Shown here one piece after another: positions 5,149 through 52,820 of a stretch of DNA of 64,000 nt. Both the position numbers and the translations under genes were made by a program. The stretch's first letter is position 1. Each line of letters begins with the position of its first letter. The notes beneath the pieces are model-generated. The model had not been told where the DNA came from. It searched no databases and saw only the letters and a program-made list of their open reading frames with translations. This DNA comes from Streptomyces sp. NRRL F-2580 (GTDB taxonomy: Bacteria > Actinomycetota > Actinomycetes > Streptomycetales > Streptomycetaceae): NCBI RefSeq assembly GCF_000720115.1, contig NZ_JOIR01000011.1:385573-449572 (forward strand). The letters run 5' to 3'.

Positions 5149-6042
5149 TCAACGCGGCGGTTCGGCGGCCGTCACCTGGCGGTGCGCCAGTTCCGCCAGC
5201 CGTGCCTGCCCGTCCTTGCCCGGGTGGAACCAGTCCCAGCGGCTCAACTGGTCCGCCGCGAAGGGGTACTGGAACACGGCCCCGCCGTCGTAGCGGCACA
5301 GCTCGTCCTTCGCGCAGACCTCGCGCAGCACCTCGTTGTACTCGACCACCCGCGCCCGGACCTGCTCACGCCGGGCGGTCGCCCCCGTCGCCGCCGACAG
5401 CGGATCGGCGAGCATCGACTGACAGATCCCCAGCTTCCAGACCTGCCGCACCATCGGGAGGTCCTTGCCCTGCTCCCACAGCCGTTGGAGGTCCGGCACG
5501 CTGGAGACGTACACCTGGGAGGTGGGGGACGCGGCCCGGAGCCCGGCGAGGGCCTTCTCGAATCCGTCCCGGAACTCCGCCACCGGCGTCATCGACGAAG
5601 CCGTGGGCCGGCAGGCGTCGTTCGAGCCCACCATGACCGTGACCAGGTCGGGCTTGTGCGCGGCGGCCCCCGCCAGCTGCCCCGGCAGGTCCGCCATCCG
5701 GGCGCCGGTCACCGCGTAGTTCCAGCTGCGGGTGGGCACCTGGGCGTCCCCGAGCAGCCGGGCGGCGAGGGAGCGGACCGCCGGGTCGTTCCCGGTGGCC
5801 CAGGAGACCTCCGGGCAGTCGGCCAGCACGGAACAGGCGTCGAAACCACGTGTGATGGAGTCGCCCACGGCCGCGACCGAGGCGGGCGCCGTGTTCCAGC
5901 GCGGAGCGGCCCGCGCCCGCTCGCCCCCGTCGCCCGACCCGCCCGAGCTGCACCCCGTCGTCGCGCCGGCCAGCAGCACGGCCGCCGCGCCCGCTGCCGC
6001 GAGGACCCGGCGCGCGCGGGGGCGCGGAGCGGTGGGGCGCAT
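5149..6042 (-). CDS. SGNH/GDSL hydrolase lipoprotein
   Basis: A 297-aa secreted esterase or lipase-like protein. The N-terminus has a positive region, a hydrophobic core and the lipobox LLAGATTGC ending at C31, so it is probably a lipoprotein. Block I is AAVGDSITRGF (nucleophile S62), the block III-like element is VGSNDAC, and the catalytic Asp/His pair is in WDWFHPGKDG near the C-terminus. Six or more cysteines outside the lipobox suggest disulfides outside the cell. The ATG at 6042 has AAGGAGGAGCCC upstream. The substrate, either acyl esters or acetylated glycans, is unknown. Confidence 0.9.
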   Translation of the reverse strand: MRPTAPRPRARRVLAAAGAAAVLLAGATTGCSSGGSGDGGERARAAPRWNTAPASVAAVGDSITRGFDACSVLADCPEVSWATGNDPAVRSLAARLLGDAQVPTRSWNYAVTGARMADLPGQLAGAAAHKPDLVTVMVGSNDACRPTASSMTPVAEFRDGFEKALAGLRAASPTSQVYVSSVPDLQRLWEQGKDLPMVRQVWKLGICQSMLADPLSAATGATARREQVRARVVEYNEVLREVCAKDELCRYDGGAVFQYPFAADQLSRWDWFHPGKDGQARLAELAHRQVTAAEPPR

Positions 6043-31821: not shown

Positions 31822-34694
31822 GCAGGCCCCGGGAGCGGGACGCGCGGCCGCCGACGGACGTGCGGACGACGAGGAAAGGCAAGACGATCGAAGCAGTGTG
31901 GTCGGGTACCTGGGTCGCGGAGCGGCTGGGCGTCAGCCTGGAGGACTCCGAAGGCGGTCCGCGGCTGACGGAGCTGCTCGGACTGGCCCTGCGCCGCAAC
32001 CCCAAGCGGGCGCACCTGCTGGTCTCGCAGGTGCTGGGCAAGCACGTCCCGCAGTCCCCGCGGACGGTGTACGCCGCCGGGTACGGGCTCGGCGAACGCG
32101 TCCGGGCCCTGCTCGGCGAGGACGGGGCCGCCGCGGCCGTGGTCCTCGGCTACGCCGAGACCGCCACAGGTCTCGGCCACTGCGTGGCCGACGGCCTGGG
32201 CAGCGCCCCCTACCTGCACTCCACCCGCCGGCCCGTCCCGGGCGTGGAGCCCGCGGGCGGCTTCGAGGAGGCGCACTCGCACGCCACCTCGCACCTGCTG
32301 CTGCCCGAGGACCCGCAGCTGCTGGCGGGCAGCGGTCCGCTCGTCCTCGTCGACGACGAGTTCTCCACCGGCAACACGGTCCTGAACACCATCCGCGACC
32401 TGCACGCCCGCCATCCCCGCCCGCACTACGTGGTCGTCGCCCTCGTCGACATGCGCTCCCCGGCCGACCGCGACCGGCTCACCGCCTTCGCCGCCGAGCT
32501 GGGCGCGCGGGTGGACCTCATCGCCCTCGCCTCGGGCACGGTCTCCCTCCCGGACGACGTCCTGACCAAGGGCCAGGCCCTGGTGGAGGAACACGAGGCT
32601 CTGACCGAGGCCCTCCCCGCCGCCGCGCAAATCCAGCCCGCACCCCCGGCCGATGCGGAGCCCGCGTCCCCGGCGGAAGCGGGGCCCGTGGCTCCGGCCG
32701 GGCAGATCCAGCCCGCACCCTGGGCCGAATCGGGGGCCGTGGCTCCGGCCGAAGGCGTCACCGCAGCCGGACAAAATCAGGCCGCACCCTGGGCCGAATC
32801 GCGGGCCGTGGCTCCGGCCGAAGACGTCACCGCAGCCGGGCAAATCCAGCCCGCACCCTGGGCTGAATCGGAGCCCGTGGCTCCGGCTCAAGACATCAGC
32901 GCAGCCGGGCAAAATCAGCCGCTCCGGCGTTTGAGGAGCGGGGTCCGGGGCGGAGCCCCGGCGGACGGCCCGCAGCCGGTCACGCGCGTCGAGCTGAACT
33001 GGCCCTCCGGCGTCCCCGACGGCGGCCGCCACGGCTTCACCCCCGCCCACCGCGCCCGCCTGGAGGCGGCCCTGCCGGAACTCGCCGACCGGCTCACCGC
33101 CGCGCTCGGCACCGGCCCCGGCACCGAGCCCGGCCCCGGCACCGAGCCCGGCCCCGGCCGGATCCTCGTCCTCGGCAACGAAGAGCTGATGTACGCCCCG
33201 CTGCGCCTCGCCAAAGCCCTGGAAGAGGCGGGCGCGGCCCGCGAGGTCCGCTTCTCCACCACCACCCGCTCGCCGGTGCTCGCCGTGGACGACCCCGGCT
33301 ACGCCATCCGCACCCGGCTGGTCTTCCCGGCCCACGACGCCCCCGCCGACGGCCCCGGCGACCGCTACGCCTACAACGTCGCGGGCGCCGGCTTCGACGC
33401 CGTCATCGCCGTCGTCGACTCGGCCGGCGACACCCCCGAACTGCACGCCGGGCTGCTCACGGCCCTCGCCCCGCACACCGGACGCGTCGTGCTGGCCGTG
33501 GTCCCCTCGTACGTGCCCGACCCACCCGCCACACCCGACCGGCAGGAGCCGATCATGCCCGAGCCCCTGCGCGGCCCCGCCTTCTCCTCGTACGCCCCCG
33601 AGGACGTCGGCTGGCTGCTCCAGGACTTCTCAGACGTCGAGCTGGAGGCCCCGACCGAGGAGCGCGAGGAGGCCATCCAGGCCGGCGGCGCCCACTACGC
33701 CGAATCCCTGCCCGTCGAGTACCAGCCGTCCCCCCAGTACCAGGAGCTCTACCAGAGCGCCCTCACGGCCTCCGCCGCCCGCATCGCCCGCGCCGTCGGG
33801 ACCGTCACCGAGACCGTCCTCGCCGAGCGCTCCCCCTCCCCGGTCCTGGTCTCCCTGGCCCGCGCCGGCACGCCCGTGGGCGTACTGATGCGCCGCTGGG
33901 CCCAGACCCGGTACGGCCTCGACCTGCCGCACTACGCCGTCTCCATCGTGCGCGGCCGCGGCATCGACGCCAACGCCCTGCGCTGGCTCGCCGCCCACCA
34001 CGACCCCGCCGACGTCGTCTTCGTGGACGGCTGGACGGGCAAGGGCGCCATCACCCGCGAGCTGCGCGACGCCCTCGCCGAGTTCGAGGGCTTCAACCCG
34101 GAGATCGTCGTGCTCGCCGACCCGGGCTCGTGCGTGGACACGTACGGCACCCGCGAGGACTTCCTGATCCCCTCCGCCTGTCTCAATTCCACCGTCTCAG
34201 GTCTCATATCGCGTACGGTTCTGAGGTCCGACCTGGTCGGTCCCGCGGACTTCCACGGCGCGAAGTTCTACCGGGAGCTCGCCGGAGCCGACGTCTCCGT
34301 CGCCTTCGTCGACACCGTCGCCGCCCACTTCGACGAGGTGGCCGACGCCGTCGACGAGGAGGTCAAGGAGCTGCTCGCGGCCGACCGCACCCCCACCTGG
34401 GAAGGCTGGGCGGCGGTCGAGCGGATCAGCGAGGAGCACGGCATCCACGACGTGAACCTCGTCAAGCCCGGCGTCGGCGAGACCACCCGCGTGCTCCTGC
34501 GCCGGGTGCCGTGGAAGATCCTGGCGCAGCGCGGCGCCGGGCCCGACCTGGACCACGTACGGCTGCTCGCCGAGCAGCGCGGGGTCCCGGTGGAAGAGGT
34601 CGACGGGCTCCCCTACACGTGCGTGGGACTCATCCACCCCCGATTCACGCGCGGCGCCACCGGCGCCGACGGAAAGGCTGTGGCCTCGAAGTGA
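31818..34694 (+). CDS. fused phosphoribosyltransferase-TRSP-StiP protein, Ter-linked
   Basis: A 958-aa fusion. Residues 1-285 form a PRTase with the PRPP loop LVLVDDEFSTGNTVL (about 176-190). Residues 295-380 are a repetitive linker. The TRSP domain (about 390-560) shows its namesake motif in TTTRSPVLAVDDPGYA. From about 584 to the end lies a second PRTase of the StiP type (YAPEDVGWLLQDF, GGAHYAESLPVEY, PRPP loop VFVDGWTGKGAI near 732). These parts are usually two separate genes. The GTG overlaps the previous stop (GTGA), and the stop overlaps the HAD gene. It likely links a base-like moiety to ribose phosphate. Confidence 0.88.
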   Translation: MSRPRERDARPPTDVRTTRKGKTIEAVWSGTWVAERLGVSLEDSEGGPRLTELLGLALRRNPKRAHLLVSQVLGKHVPQSPRTVYAAGYGLGERVRALLGEDGAAAAVVLGYAETATGLGHCVADGLGSAPYLHSTRRPVPGVEPAGGFEEAHSHATSHLLLPEDPQLLAGSGPLVLVDDEFSTGNTVLNTIRDLHARHPRPHYVVVALVDMRSPADRDRLTAFAAELGARVDLIALASGTVSLPDDVLTKGQALVEEHEALTEALPAAAQIQPAPPADAEPASPAEAGPVAPAGQIQPAPWAESGAVAPAEGVTAAGQNQAAPWAESRAVAPAEDVTAAGQIQPAPWAESEPVAPAQDISAAGQNQPLRRLRSGVRGGAPADGPQPVTRVELNWPSGVPDGGRHGFTPAHRARLEAALPELADRLTAALGTGPGTEPGPGTEPGPGRILVLGNEELMYAPLRLAKALEEAGAAREVRFSTTTRSPVLAVDDPGYAIRTRLVFPAHDAPADGPGDRYAYNVAGAGFDAVIAVVDSAGDTPELHAGLLTALAPHTGRVVLAVVPSYVPDPPATPDRQEPIMPEPLRGPAFSSYAPEDVGWLLQDFSDVELEAPTEEREEAIQAGGAHYAESLPVEYQPSPQYQELYQSALTASAARIARAVGTVTETVLAERSPSPVLVSLARAGTPVGVLMRRWAQTRYGLDLPHYAVSIVRGRGIDANALRWLAAHHDPADVVFVDGWTGKGAITRELRDALAEFEGFNPEIVVLADPGSCVDTYGTREDFLIPSACLNSTVSGLISRTVLRSDLVGPADFHGAKFYRELAGADVSVAFVDTVAAHFDEVADAVDEEVKELLAADRTPTWEGWAAVERISEEHGIHDVNLVKPGVGETTRVLLRRVPWKILAQRGAGPDLDHVRLLAEQRGVPVEEVDGLPYTCVGLIHPRFTRGATGADGKAVASK
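32700..32906 (+). repeat. three in-frame 69-nt (23-aa) repeats in PRTase linker
   Basis: Units at 32700-32768, 32769-32837 and 32838-32906 each encode G-Q-(I/N)-Q-x-A-P-W-A-E-S followed by AVAPAE-VTAA-like residues. A fourth copy begins at 32907 and runs into a dispersed repeat. Confidence 0.93.
32909..32961 (+). repeat. dispersed Streptomyces repeat inside coding sequence
   Basis: The segment holds CCGGCGTTTGAGGAGCGG and a hairpin CCGGGGC-GGA-GCCCCGG (32945-32961). It closely matches, in inverse orientation, the intergenic copy at 60986-61034. It encodes Arg-rich residues in the linker of the fusion protein. Confidence 0.85.
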
Positions 34695-48148: not shown

Positions 48149-48251
48149 CGTGGCTGACGTGGGCTGATGCGGGCTGACGGGGTGGGTGAGGTGGTAGTGG
48201 TGGTGGGATATCCCGTTGCGGGAAGTGCGTGTACAGGTCACGCTCGTGCGC

Positions 48252-48887
48252 GTGACCGACCCCACCGCCCCCACGGGCCCTTCCAGTCGTCCTGCGCCCC
48301 AGGGTGTACCCGCGTCCTCCTCGGAGCGTCGGTTCGGATGGTCCAACATGTTCGTCCACCCCGACGAGGACACCCGCACCGACGGAGGGTTCCAGGGTGA
48401 ACGGGCCGTGCTTACCGGCTACCTGCGCGATCAGCGGCTGACGCTGGAGCTCAAGTGCGCGGGCCTCGACGCGGAGGCCCTCGCGCGCCGCTCGGTGGAA
48501 CCGTCCAACCTGTCCCTGCTGGGTCTCGTACGCCACCTCGCGGGGGTCGAGCAGTACTGGTTCCGGCAGGTCATGGCGGGCCAGGCCGTACGGCGCCACT
48601 ACCGCTCGGAGGACGAACCCGCGGGCGAGTTCACCGGCGCGGTGGCCGACCCGGCCGTGGTCGCGGACGCGTGGGCGACCTGGCGAGCCGAAGTCACCTT
48701 CGCGGAACAACTCGTCGCGCAGGCCCCCAGCCTGGATGTCACGGGCGACGCGGGAGGTGCGGGGGACGCGGGCGACGAGCCGATGGAGCTCCGCGAGGTC
48801 CTGGTCCACATGATCGAGGAATACGCCCGCCACAACGGCCACGCGGACTTCCTACGGGAACGCATCGACGGGCGAGTCGGCCAGTAG
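48252..48887 (+). CDS. DinB family protein (DUF664)
   Basis: A 211-aa protein. The DinB-like four-helix bundle starts near residue 45 (GYLRDQRLTLELKCAGLDAE). Candidate metal ligands are H in VRHLAGVEQYWFRQ and HxxxH in MIEEYARHNGHADFLRE. Members are thiol S-transferases or unknown enzymes. The N-terminus is uncertain: GTG at 48252 is used, but the ATG at 48348 (MFVHPDEDTR) would also leave a full domain. Its stop is followed after 3 nt by the left inverted repeat of the immunity island. Confidence 0.8.
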   Translation: MTDPTAPTGPSSRPAPQGVPASSSERRFGWSNMFVHPDEDTRTDGGFQGERAVLTGYLRDQRLTLELKCAGLDAEALARRSVEPSNLSLLGLVRHLAGVEQYWFRQVMAGQAVRRHYRSEDEPAGEFTGAVADPAVVADAWATWRAEVTFAEQLVAQAPSLDVTGDAGGAGDAGDEPMELREVLVHMIEEYARHNGHADFLRERIDGRVGQ

Positions 48888-48890
48888 GGC

Positions 48891-49250
48891 GGGGCTTCGG
48901 GGGAGGAAAGAGAGAGCCGGGTCCTAGCGGGGCGGAATCAGAGAAGGGTCGGGGGTTTCCCGGCTGTCTTCGTGTTTCCGTGTCGGGCCGGCCCCTCAAG
49001 GGCGCTCCTTCGTCGCGTCGCTACGCGATGGCCTCCGGCCACCCTTGACCGACCGACCCGACACGGAAACACGAAGACAGCCGGGAAACCCCAAAAGAAC
49101 GGGCCGGGTCCTTCTTTCAGGGACGGCCCCATCACAGATATCCGGGCGAGGTCCCGGTGCGCGCCACATCGCTACGCGCTCCCGACGTCTCAGCGTCTGC
49201 CAACCGTCCTGGGCTGGACATAAGCCGCCAACAATCGCTACGCGCTTCGC
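48891..49250 (+). repeat. left inverted repeat of the immunity island
   Basis: About 360 nt, matched in inverse orientation at 51390-51750. The core at 48976-49174 (199 nt) and its partner 51476-51675 differ by eye in one base substitution and one extra C only. Homology continues outward to the end of the DinB gene at lower identity. The arm itself contains a fold-back: GGCTGTCTTCGTGTTTCCGT (48962-48981) with its complement at about 49062-49081. Confidence 0.93.
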
Positions 49251-49361
49251 TGGTCTCGGCGACTGCCGGCCGTCTGGGGCGATTAATTCTATTCCGACAC
49301 GTCGTTGAACATGCTGTTCCGCCAAGGATTCACTGTTTCCAGAAAGCTGAAGCCAGCGCTG

Positions 49362-49505
49362 TCATCGCGATCGCCGGGTTTGCTGGTCGGCCCCTTTTCG
49401 GATACGGCGATCGTGCGGGTGGTGAAGGCGCCAGAGGATAGTGAGGCCGCCCACGGCCAGCGCGGTCACCGCCGTGAACAGGACGAGACGCCGGGCGCGA
49501 GCCAT
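49362..49505 (-). CDS. small membrane protein inside the island
   Basis: A 47-aa reading frame begins MARARRLVLFTAVTALAVGG and has one membrane helix (about residues 7-25) then a basic His/Arg-rich tail. The ATG at 49505 has a GAGGAGG site with a 6-nt gap, a better ribosome site than most genes here. I do not recognise it. It is divergent from the SUKH gene. It may be a leader, an immunity partner or an unrelated small membrane protein. Confidence 0.6.
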   Translation of the reverse strand: MARARRLVLFTAVTALAVGGLTILWRLHHPHDRRIRKGADQQTRRSR

Positions 49506-49709
49506 GGGGATCCTCCTCGATGAGGAATGGCAGGGCGGCTGGTGAATGGTGATGTGGGCGGGCTAGCCCGTGTCCCCATTGAGCCCGATCGGGCGGACTG
49601 CGTCATGTCGCTGAATGTCGTGGCTTGACAGCTGCCATCTGATGGCGAGGGGCAGTGTCAGGCCGAGCGTCTAGGCTTGCTGATCATCTACTCAAGGGGG
49701 GACTCCGCC

Positions 49710-50342
49710 ATGGGCATTCATCCTGACGTGGCCACATTGCTCGATCTCGTGCCGCCAGACTTCGCCGGTGGCGAGCGGATCGACTGGGACGCTGCCGAAG
49801 CGGCGCTGGGCACCAAGCTGCCGAGTGACTACAAGGCTCTACTGGACACGTACGGCGTCGGTGATATCGGAGAGCTCGTCATTCTGCCCCCGCTCCCGAG
49901 CGACGTGCGCGGGTACGAGAGGTGTCACGTCGGAAGCATGACGGCAGGGCTGCGTGGACTTTGGGATGACGACTCAGGAGTCCCGGGCGTGACGCTTGGT
50001 GCAGATGCCGTTCTGCCCTGGGGTTCTGGGATGAACGCCAACGAGATGGCCTGGCTCATGAACGACCCCGACCCGGACAAGTGGCCTGTCGTGGCCTGGC
50101 GTCGGCACCACTTGTGGAGCGAGTCGCCTTGGGCTTTGTTCGACTGCGGCATGGTCCAGTTCATCACCCGCATGATGCTGGGCCAGTTCGAAGCCTGCCC
50201 ACTCGGCGATGCGTCTCTCTGGACGCAGACGGACACCTTCGTGAGCTGGCGCGAGCAACGCCGACGGGAGCTGGCCGGGCTGGACCCCCAGACCGGCGAG
50301 CCCAATCCCTATGCCTCCATGTACCCCGTCACTGACGACTAG
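49710..50342 (+). CDS. SUKH (SMI1/KNR4) family immunity-type protein
   Basis: A 210-aa protein of the SUKH superfamily. The fold signature is in IDWDAAEAALGTKLPSDYKALLDTYG (about 26-51) followed by hydrophobic strands and WPVVAWRRHHLWSESPW. SUKH proteins commonly neutralise contact-dependent nuclease toxins. No toxin gene is visible in the window, so it looks like an orphan immunity gene. Third-position A/T is more frequent than in neighbours, which suggests transfer. AAGGGGGG lies nine bases before the ATG. Confidence 0.82.
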   Translation: MGIHPDVATLLDLVPPDFAGGERIDWDAAEAALGTKLPSDYKALLDTYGVGDIGELVILPPLPSDVRGYERCHVGSMTAGLRGLWDDDSGVPGVTLGADAVLPWGSGMNANEMAWLMNDPDPDKWPVVAWRRHHLWSESPWALFDCGMVQFITRMMLGQFEACPLGDASLWTQTDTFVSWREQRRRELAGLDPQTGEPNPYASMYPVTDD

Positions 50343-50476
50343 AGGATCCATTCCAAGCGATCAGCGAGGTGCGTCGGTCTCACATAGAGTGCGGTCGCCA
50401 GGGTGTCCAACTCTGTTTTCTTACACGGGTGTTGGGCGCACTCGCCTTATGAGCGCAGCCGACCCTTTGGAACGTC

Positions 50477-50992
50477 ATGATCCTACCTAAAGACCGCGAT
50501 GCCCGCTTCATCACCATCCGCCGTGGGGGGACTCTTACGGACTCCGACCATCGGCTGCTGGCCTTGTGGGCTGCCGCGTGCGCGGAGCACGTTCTGCACC
50601 TCTTCGAGTCGGTGCAACCCTCGGACCCACGGCCCCGCGAGGCGATCGAGCAGATTCGCGCATGGGCGCGCGGCGAGATCAGGATGTCTCAGTCCCGAGC
50701 GGCGGGCGGCCATGCCATGGCTGCGGCAAGAGAACTGAGCGGAGCCGCTCGGCACGCCGCATTCGCTGCCGGTCAGGCGGCGGTGGTGGCGCACGTCGCC
50801 GCACACGAGCTCGGCGCTGCGGCCTACGCGATCAAGGCTGTGCGCGCGGCGGCCCCCAGAGGGGAGGGTGAGAACGCCGGCAGGCTCGAGTGCCGTTGGC
50901 AGCGCGAACAGCTCCCGGATGCGATTCGTGAACTAGTCCTCGATGACCAGCGGTTGCGAAACGACATCTGCTGGTCGGTCTTCGACTGTTGA
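50477..50992 (+). CDS. Imm5-like putative immunity protein
   Basis: A 171-aa Ala-rich helical protein: DHRLLALWAAACAEHVLHLF, DPRPREAIEQIRAWARGEIR, then GGHAMAAARELSGAARHAAF and AVVAHVAAHELGAAAYAIKA. From memory this matches the Imm5 family of polymorphic-toxin immunity proteins. It follows the SUKH gene in the same direction after 134 nt. Like the SUKH gene it has no toxin partner here and lies between the inverted repeats. Confidence 0.72.
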   Translation: MILPKDRDARFITIRRGGTLTDSDHRLLALWAAACAEHVLHLFESVQPSDPRPREAIEQIRAWARGEIRMSQSRAAGGHAMAAARELSGAARHAAFAAGQAAVVAHVAAHELGAAAYAIKAVRAAAPRGEGENAGRLECRWQREQLPDAIRELVLDDQRLRNDICWSVFDC

Positions 50993-51158
50993 CCGGGACG
51001 CCCGCTGTGGTCCGGGCGGTGGACGAGTCAGGTGCCCGGCCGGAGCCGGTCTGTGGGTAGTTCCTTCGAGACAGCTCACAAGCGCCTGATCGGGTGGGCG
51101 CCCGACGGCCCCTAGCCCTCATCAGGTCCCGAGCCAGATCGCGATGGCTGCCGCCATC

Positions 51159-51488
51159 GTGCCTATGTCCAGCCCGGGACGGATCGCAGAGGCTGAGACG
51201 TGCGGAGCGCGTAGCGATCGATGGCGGCTTATGGCCAGCCCGGGACGGATCGCAGACGCTGAGACGTGCGGAGCGCGTAGCGATCGATGGCGGCTTATGT
51301 CCAGCCCGGGACGGCTCGCAGACGCTGAGACGTGGGGAGCGCGTAGCGATTGATCGCGGCTTATGTCCGGCCCAAGACAGCTGGTAGACGCTGTGACGTG
51401 GGGAGCGCGTAGCGATCGATGGCGGCTTATGTCCGGCCCAAGACGGCTGGTAGACGCTGTGACGTGGGGAGGGCTTAGCGATGTGGCG
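51159..51488 (-). repeat. five 66-nt tandem repeats at right end of island
   Basis: Units begin at 51159, 51225, 51291, 51357 and 51423 and read CGGCTTATGTCC, then AGACGCTG(A/T)GACGTG and AGCGCGTAGCGAT. The last unit merges into the right inverted repeat. About one and a half matching units occur at the left end (around 49163-49260) in the opposite orientation. Since 66 is a multiple of three, long open frames run through it, but none has a ribosome site. Confidence 0.93.
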
Positions 51489-51750
51489 CGCACCGGGACC
51501 TCGCCCGGATATCTGTGATGGGGCCGTCCCTGAAAGAAGGACCCGGCCCGTTCTTTTGGGGGTTTCCCGGCTGTCTTCGTGTTTCCGTGGCGGGTCGGTC
51601 GGTCAAGGGTGGCCGGAGGCCATCGCGTAGCGACGCGACGAAGGAGCGCCCTTGAGGGGCCGGCCCGACACGGAAGGACGATGAGACTGACGGGAAACCC
51701 CCAGTCCTTCTCTGATTCCGCCCAGCCGGGACCCGGCTCCCCCCGAAGCC
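51390..51750 (-). repeat. right inverted repeat of the immunity island
   Basis: Inverse partner of 48891-49250; the core is 51476-51675. It ends 5 nt before the stop codon of the convergent HAD gene. Its internal fold-back is more diverged than in the left copy (one arm has TCATCGTCCTTCC in place of the left version). Confidence 0.93.
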
Positions 51751-51755
51751 CAGCC

Positions 51756-52439
51756 TCAGGCCGCCGCGCCCACCGTGAGCTGGATCGAGCCGTCCTTGGC
51801 GGTCGTCACCGTGAGGGTCGTCAGGTCCGGGACGTGGGTCGTCGGGGCGTGGGCGGCTGCTCGGGGGCCGACGCCGATCACCCGCATGCCTGCCGCGCGG
51901 CCGGCCGCGATGCCTGCGGCCGAGTCCTCGAAGACGATGCAGTCGGCCGGGTCCACGCCCAGTGCGGCGGCACCCTTGAGGAAGCCCTCGGGATCGGGCT
52001 TGCTGGCCTGAACGGACTCGGCCGTGACCCGTATCGCGGGCATCGGCAGGGCGGCGGCCGTCATCCGGGCCGTGGCCAGGGCGGCGTCCGCGGAGGTGAC
52101 GAGGGCATGCGGCAGGGCGGTGATCGCCGCCATGAACGCCGGGGCGCCCGCGACCGGGACCACGCCGTCGGTGTCGGCGGTCTCGCGGGCCAGCATCACG
52201 GCGTTCTCGGCGTGGTTGATCTCCATCGGACGGTCCGGCAGGAGGACGGCCATGGTGGCGTAGCCCTGGCGGCCGTGCACCACCTTCAGGGCCGCCTCTG
52301 GGTCCAGACCGTGGGACAGAGCCCAGTCACGCCAGCAGCGCTCGACCACCGCGTCGGAGTTGACGATCGTGCCGTCCATGTCCAGGAGCAGGGCCTTGGC
52401 GGTGAGGACGACGGGGGCGGTGGTGGTGCTGGCCGGCAT
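51756..52439 (-). CDS. HAD family phosphatase, sugar-phosphatase type
   Basis: A 227-aa HAD phosphatase. Motif I is KALLLDMDGTIVNSD (D20, D22), motif II VTSA, motif III K in QASKPDPEGF and motif IV FEDSAAGI. It resembles sugar and glycerol phosphatases (YfbT/GPP-like). ATG at 52439 with GGAG upstream. The 5' leader holds a perfect 14-bp hairpin. The 3' end abuts the island. Confidence 0.92.
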   Translation of the reverse strand: MPASTTTAPVVLTAKALLLDMDGTIVNSDAVVERCWRDWALSHGLDPEAALKVVHGRQGYATMAVLLPDRPMEINHAENAVMLARETADTDGVVPVAGAPAFMAAITALPHALVTSADAALATARMTAAALPMPAIRVTAESVQASKPDPEGFLKGAAALGVDPADCIVFEDSAAGIAAGRAAGMRVIGVGPRAAAHAPTTHVPDLTTLTVTTAKDGSIQLTVGAAA

Positions 52440-52472
52440 CGGCGGGGCTCCAGACGGGCGGGAAAAGAGAAC

Positions 52473-52516
52473 AAGTGGTTCCGTCCACCGGTCAGGGAAT
52501 GAGGACGGAACCACTT
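52473..52516. promoter_or_regulatory. hairpin in 5' leader of HAD gene
   Basis: AAGTGGTTCCGTCC (52473-52486) is perfectly complementary to 52503-52516, with a 16-nt loop; flanking GAACA/TGTTC extends the dyad with a one-base slip. A -10-like TATCGT lies at 52531-52526 on the minus strand, so the dyad would sit at the start of the transcript, as an operator or leader structure. Confidence 0.5.
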
Positions 52517-52820
52517 TGTTCCTACACGATACAAAACAAAGGGCCGTCCGCGCCACCGGCGGGGTGTGACCCCTGTCCATACGGTGTGTTTCCCACGGCT
52601 CCGATCCGCCGACGGATCCGATCCCCCAGCGCGCGCCTATCCCTCCAGCGCCTTGCGGGTCACCGGACCGTAGATGCCCCACTCCTGGTCGTCGATGCCG
52701 TGGGAGTACTGGAACTCCGACAGCGCGTCCTCCACCCGCCCGTCGAACTTCCCGTGGAACTTGCCCCGGTACAGGCCCTGCGCCGACAGCAGACGCTGCA
52801 GCTTCTCCACCTCCGGACCC

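Follow-up and report, generated by a model that had tools for sequence, protein, structure and literature searches.

A family of paired, hairpin-bearing inverted repeats in Streptomyces as candidate docks for swappable accessory genes

We analysed a stretch of 64,000 nucleotides from Streptomyces sp. NRRL F-2580 (contig NZ_JOIR01000011.1, positions 385,573 to 449,572; hereafter the window), in which two long inverted repeats, called arms below, enclose a small group of genes between a DinB-like mycothiol-S-transferase gene and a HAD hydrolase gene (Table 1). The enclosing repeats noted in a preliminary description of this locus are real and far beyond chance: BLAST of one arm against the other gave one alignment of 370 nt at 90.5% identity, and 352 of the 408 columns of the full-length arm alignment were identical. 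The near-identical core described at that time was also recovered, with an exact count of 198 identical columns in the best 200-column window of the alignment (starting at 48976) instead of 199 of 200, and the element indeed sits between two stop codons, that of DinB at 48887 and that of HAD at 51756. Each arm starts on its outer side with some 60 nt of sequence, followed by a hairpin of roughly 140 nt; a linker and then 66-nt repeats lie further inward. Folded as single-stranded DNA, the left hairpin reached -71.7 kcal/mol (z = -13.2 versus shuffles) and the right hairpin -61.2 kcal/mol (z = -11.0 versus shuffles). The 26-nt tip of the hairpins, searched with up to 3 mismatches, occurred in 2 copies in the window against a mean of 0.00 over 100 shuffles. 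The outer half of the left hairpin is a copy of its inner half, in contrast to most other arms, and this copying may have occurred by template switching within the folded hairpin. Rfam gave no match at the gathering threshold.

Table 1. Features of the element and its flanking genes, in window positions.
Feature	Position	Strand	Basis or remark
DinB-like mycothiol-S-transferase, flank	48216..48887	+	PF04978, E 1.4e-44
Left arm	48888..49285	+	Outer part, hairpin, linker, ~1.7 units of 66-nt repeat; repeat scan (48888-49280) and BLAST
Left hairpin	48952..49092	+	~36-bp stem, branched tip; 92% complementary in repeat scan
Tip core CTTCGTCGCGTCGCTACGCGATGGCC, left hairpin	49008..49033	+	Within the family's most conserved part (invariant columns, 62 arms)
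Left 66-nt repeat copies	49168..49280	+	Repeat scan; ~1.7 units
47-aa ORF with hydrophobic stretch	49362..49505	-	ORF list; no Pfam match
SUKH-family (SMI1/KNR4) protein	49710..50342	+	SUKH_6, E 6.1e-6, 27.2 bits, just over the cut-off of 27
Imm5-like protein, 171 aa	50477..50992	+	PF21805 (Imm5_like), E 7.3e-38
Right-arm tandem 66-nt repeats	51161..51490	-	TRF: 51164-51482, period 66, 4.8 copies
Right arm	51370..51755	-	Repeat scan and BLAST
Right hairpin	51557..51703	-	DNA fold
Tip core, right hairpin	51618..51643	-	26-nt tip search
HAD hydrolase, flank	51756..52682	-	PF00702, E 2.4e-18

The only open reading frames (ORFs) between the window arms are those of a SUKH-family protein, an Imm5-like protein and a protein of 47 aa; Pfam bore out the first two identities (Table 1) and found no transposase, and no toxin gene was recognised there. 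The SUKH gene has an ATG start at 49710 within a mechanical ORF running from 49677, and a Shine-Dalgarno-like GAGGAGG was seen by eye upstream of the 47-aa ORF. The G+C content at third codon positions (GC3) of these genes is low, as had been suspected, with values of 0.786 for SUKH, 0.760 for the Imm5-like gene and 0.766 for the 47-aa ORF, compared with 0.914 ± 0.038 for 30 long ORFs that were picked for a GC3 exceeding the value at first codon positions, a choice that leans to high GC3. The four neighbouring genes had values of 0.878 (DinB), 0.910 (HAD), 0.953 and 0.947.

The arm is not confined to this locus. Two more single arms and one decayed copy are present in the same genome. With one genome per species, as in all comparisons reported here, a strict search for the 36-nt tip, allowing at most 3 mismatches, was positive in 15 of 246 genomes of the genus, compared with 0 of 246 for the reversed control pattern. 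A looser DNA search detected the arm in at least 12 of 61 relatives, a lower bound since few candidates were scored per genome in the multi-genome DNA searches. An exact pattern was found in 60 stretches, 59 of them in records named Streptomyces and one in an unclassified actinobacterium, and its carriers include S. lavendulae, S. virginiae, S. avidinii, S. xanthophaeus and S. goshikiensis. Phages yielded no match to the arm and IMG/VR viral contigs no exact 25-nt pattern, while four plasmid records matched the arm in part; one of these is a linear plasmid of Streptomyces on which a GNAT gene lies next to an arm. The arms are a dispersed intergenic repeat family of some Streptomyces. The family looks undescribed, no description having been found in titles and the beginnings of abstracts in a literature search outside which most subscription papers fell. 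In several cases (L024/L041, L036, L050, L089) a draft contig stops in or close to an arm, so that short-read genomes probably yield too low a count of paired elements.

Arms recur as pairs with a fixed orientation. In a set of 81 loci (90 minus nine duplicates of other records; one more was dropped for the arm comparison), all 44 pairs of tips lying within 5 kb faced each other, and the remaining loci contained a single tip (35 loci) or none (2 loci). Some of these single tips are halves of pairs: L060 and L087 turned out to be opposite ends of one element, that of L130. Because 11 of the 20 fetched regions in one locus set had been selected for looking paired, the count over three whole genomes is less biased: pairing by hand gave 10 pairs from 24 tip matches in S. 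lavendulae CCM 3239, 11 from 25 in NBC_00249 and 1 from 9 in NBC_01214, and all 22 pairs were inward. A codon-usage score recognised a coding-like ORF in 19 of 50 paired elements (median tip spacing 2298 nt) and none in the other 31 (median 811 nt). Flanking genes could be classed for 37 of the 50 elements, and of the 23 sites concerned, 15 had tandem, 5 convergent and 2 divergent flanks, with 1 mixed. These features bear on the idea that two separate hairpin repeats, terminator-like or REP-like, flank genes by chance and that the pair is no unit. The 35 single tips and the 7 unpaired matches of NBC_01214 agree with such an idea, and hairpins of this kind could act as terminators, but separate repeats would not be expected to pair solely inward, nor to occur most commonly as a pair without any scored ORF, and mostly tandem flanks do not fit a role solely as terminator of convergent genes. 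We regard this explanation as very improbable indeed.

Two further possibilities concerning pair structure were ruled out. A flip-flop of the tips of the adeno-associated virus type, which came to mind by its likeness, does not agree with a tip orientation that is constant in all 44 pairs. General insertion into host hairpins was dismissed as well, the outer inverted repeat exceeding the 95th percentile of mismatched pairs in 8 of 47 elements. The elements of L086 and L067 are nevertheless located inside another palindrome. Some elements are enclosed or flanked by a second, GCCATCTCCCCCTCGACCCC-like palindromic repeat (L086:2861-2960 and 5545-5660; flanks of L059, L067, L091 and L122), so that foldbacks can be nested. 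Over 495 nt, the two arms of L086 share 99.4% identity.

What lies between the arms is of many kinds, and the earlier suggestion that the cargo consists specifically of immunity genes did not hold. Pfam recognised PadR with an alpha/beta hydrolase, CYTH, HAD, GNAT and glycosyltransferase proteins in one set, and GntR/UTRA, a second HAD, NmrA-like, GDSL/GGACT, NUDIX and a WYL regulator in addition; a PIN-like protein with a small upstream partner scored 21.8 bits, under the cut-off of 23.6. Proteins of 361, 185, 410, 170, 97, 94, 71 and 47 aa and the ORF of L042 had no Pfam match, and PADLOC at E 0.01 gave no match for 8 proteins. Matches to the Imm5-like protein itself are sporadic (32 of 392 genomes of the genus, own genome included), and neither arms nor SUKH were found within 1.5 kb of any of the 29 other Imm5-like loci fetched out of 31, which suggests that the capture of the window's immunity-like pair did not depend on such arms at other loci. 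The preliminary description had also envisaged that the arms might be an ordinary repeat without link to cargo; the genome search found different genes between inverted pairs. The single transposase among the 26 cargo proteins searched in Pfam (DDE_5, L124) was ruled out as mover of the elements, as it belongs to an insertion sequence (IS; L124:4494-6085) with its own 20-nt inverted ends within the cargo of that element.

A protein of 68-84 aa without Pfam match was observed near several arms (L120:5493-5708, L119:6111-6386, L076:1381-1620, L122:5083-5337 and others). In NBC_00249, arm sequence lay within 1.5 kb of 7 of its 8 matches, fragments only in one of the 7, and the eighth match, the one without arm, was the weakest; the single match in S. 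lavendulae likewise had arm sequence within this distance, and the two in S. yangpuensis had none. The protein has at least 397 relatives, and the 120 listed include multiple copies from one genome in this Streptomyces clade. It could be a component of the element family.

We then compared the content of sites shared between genomes, which carry labels S00-S29 assigned by flank similarity; 12 sites hold a pair in at least two genomes. DinB and HAD adjoin in 6 of 24 genomes searched and in the window's own. Three of these seven genomes (G066, G293 and G062) had no arm at this site (BLAST, E 1e-3): the joined flanks match as a single stretch in G066, and the interval of 207 nt in G293 contains a plain hairpin. 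In G063 and G251 the site holds an arm pair without scored ORF, in G223 a pair around an unrelated gene of 361 aa (L107:5221-6306) that had no Pfam or PADLOC match, and in the window genome the SUKH and Imm5-like genes. The comparison of relatives proposed in the preliminary description thus yielded sites without element and one site with other cargo, and not the same content and repeats throughout. In G078, an inward arm pair was seen beside HAD (L116:2144-3111) with DinB absent from the neighbourhood. Among the matches listed for site B, G233 and G302 had no arm, CB00455 and G066 had a pair lacking any scored ORF, and G062 and NBC_00249 had differing cargo. The close pair formed by G062 and S. 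lavendulae, whose flanks are 83-95% identical, differed at S07 (GntR-like sequence in G062 versus a PIN-like pair and GntR-like sequence in S. lavendulae), S08 (a 170-aa ORF versus a gene-free element) and S05 (no element versus one that contains a small ORF together with GntR-like sequence). The two genomes agreed at S11, and at S29 each has a 411- or 412-aa ORF, which in S. lavendulae is a glycosyltransferase. The family is intergenic, a site can be without element and an element without genes, and cargo differs between species.

The arms themselves track the genome more than the site. Mean identity was 0.844 between arms at different sites of the same genome (404 comparisons) and 0.758 between arms at the same site in different genomes (108), with 0.832 within elements (49) and 0.615 for all other comparisons (4192); one of the 50 elements, without enough flank, was left out. 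Interiors are mosaic: L062 and L076, at different sites of one genome, share an arm and a small ORF (649 nt, 87%) while their main genes differ, and L062, L076 and L082 have the arm and small ORF in common, not the main gene. Such mosaic interiors favour recombination over transposition of whole units.

In 62 arms, taken from no more than two elements of any genome, the tip hardly varies and the stem is variable with compensation, compensatory changes on both sides being found in 7 of 18 predicted stem pairs in a count made without shuffle control. A second arm subfamily with unrelated stem sequence formed one long hairpin in all 5 arms folded. In the alignment, the third tip hairpin was observed in two forms, GGCCTNCGGCC and GTCGCTGCGCTCC, which at times differ between the arms of one element. 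A fold conserved through compensatory changes would be expected of a functional RNA or of a chromosome-architecture element, in which the foldback is kept for a role of its own and genes would have entered its loop fortuitously. The likeness of arms within a genome would suit this too, and the Rfam result, obtained at the gathering threshold, leaves room for it. The distribution is patchy, however, in the strict as in the looser search, close relatives have element-free sites, and at least 19 of 50 elements carry coding-like ORFs, all of which speaks against such a role; we hold it to be very unlikely.

We also examined the flanks of 48 elements. The longest word shared between the two flanks averaged 5.44 nt compared with 5.54 nt in mismatched pairs, and words of 8 nt or more were shared in 5 of 48 elements for 2.8 expected, so that no target-site duplication was detected in these elements, whose boundaries are fuzzy. 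This result is relevant to a non-autonomous transposon, of which the arms would be the ends, an enzyme acting in trans repeatedly moving the whole unit with its cargo into the same preferred intergenic sites. Three S. lavendulae copies at unrelated sites (L059, L096 and L069), 92.7-96.5% identical over about 1.1 kb, are what such movement would produce, as are sites without element and ends that keep their hairpin fold. Mosaic interiors are not expected from whole-unit movement, however, no target-site duplication was detected, and the sole transposase among the 26 cargo proteins searched belongs to the IS of L124. We consider repeated transposition of this kind unlikely, while giving it some weight. 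In the preliminary description, the locus was compared to a cassette moved either by a host repeat or by an enzyme acting in trans. The host repeat family, its inverted pairs and the variable cargo stand; movement by a trans-acting enzyme is a hypothesis, and exchange by recombination between arms also fits the data.

Taken together, these results incline us, with a modest degree of confidence, to view the family as non-autonomous foldback-type elements that serve as docks for swappable accessory genes, swapping probably taking place by recombination between arms. A trans-acting enzyme would first have placed a gene-free element. Later on, arms would have undergone homologous recombination or gene conversion, either with other arms of the genome or with incoming DNA, which would have made the arms alike and led to exchange, spread or loss of the cargo. 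In this way the DinB-HAD dock may have acquired from a general accessory gene pool its orphan SUKH gene, its Imm5-like gene and the 47-aa ORF.

Several observations weigh against these docks or against their exchange by arm recombination. The codon-usage score missed the Imm5-like gene of the window itself, so that gene-free elements are overcounted. The single tips of the 35 loci are at contig or locus ends in many cases but not all, and NBC_01214 has just 1 pair among its 9 tip matches. Of 98 arms, 52 had their nearest relative outside the own element in the same genome, 41 in another genome and 5 at the same site, and no more than 41 were closest to their partner arm; arm similarity within genomes also fits repeated reinsertion. 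Stem covariation could arise by template switching without selection, and the sharing of sites could in part be due to vertical inheritance. The three cargo elements of G062 at S07, S08 and S29 (L194-L196) keep one intact tip each and may therefore be decaying. No target-site duplication was detected in the 48 elements, and no mover enzyme turned up among the 26 cargo proteins searched, none having been sought genome-wide.

An alternative, which we advance as rather doubtful, is that the family constitutes a new bacterial gene-cassette system. Each of the dispersed chromosomal docks would consist of two opposed hairpins of conserved structure, read as folded single strands by a putative protein of the host or of the element. 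Accessory genes would be captured, exchanged and copied between docks, the concerted evolution of the arms would be a by-product, and the 68-84-aa protein may act as an accessory. The family also provides a natural setting in which to test whether gene exchange depends on folded hairpins or on homology alone. If docks exchanged through their arms are the correct description, as we favour, they would explain how single accessory genes, among them immunity genes, toxin-antitoxin-like genes, modifying enzymes and regulators, come and go at fixed Streptomyces sites without an adjacent integrase or transposase. The 36-nt tip pattern is moreover a tag for listing the cargo of a whole clade.

Apart from the element, the repeat scan located a 69-nt tandem array of 3.2 copies at positions 32697-32920 of the window; its period is a multiple of 3 and it is possibly coding.

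By their architecture, the elements may work like mobile insertion cassettes (MICs) or Foldback elements, a likeness that we put forward without claiming membership in either group. MICs, found in Bacillus and others, carry passenger genes between inverted repeats with no transposase inside; mobilisation in trans has been proposed for them, and their ends are short IS ends. The elements share with them the passenger genes between inverted repeats and, in the window, an interior without transposase; L124, unlike the window, has an IS within its cargo. They differ by arms of 300-500 nt with hairpins and tandem repeats, and by shared sites with different cargo. One MIC is mentioned in PMC5444012. 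Accessory genes bounded by non-autonomous repeats are likewise a feature of MITE/TIME and TIME-COMP structures, the bounding copies of TIME-COMPs being direct or inverse and mostly on plasmids according to PMC13367494. The present family is mostly chromosomal, its pairs are inverse and inward only (44 of 44, and 22 of 22 in the three genomes), and the gene-free pair is itself the common form. The inward-only rule contradicts membership among TIME-COMPs.

Foldback elements exist in forms with and without cargo, and the long inverted arms with internal tandem repeats that characterise Foldback and Galileo elements are also seen in the window. Galileo of Drosophila has a P-element-like transposase (PMC3573991), and no counterpart is known for the present family. 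Drosophila belongs to another kingdom, and the likeness is one of architecture. Integron cassettes are single accessory genes with folded-hairpin attC sites, and their cargo includes toxin-antitoxin, GNAT and NUDIX genes. The elements resemble them in associating single accessory genes of similar types with hairpins; they differ in forming no arrays and in having two opposed hairpins per cassette, and the attC core GTTRRRY / RYYYAAC was absent by eye from the left hairpin of the window, the one inspected. Finally, REP and BIME sequences are, like the arms, intergenic palindromes of alternating orientation, REPs usually exceeding 100 copies per genome (PMC2817692). The family described here differs from them by its 9 to 25 tip matches per genome in three genomes, its large arms and its cargo.

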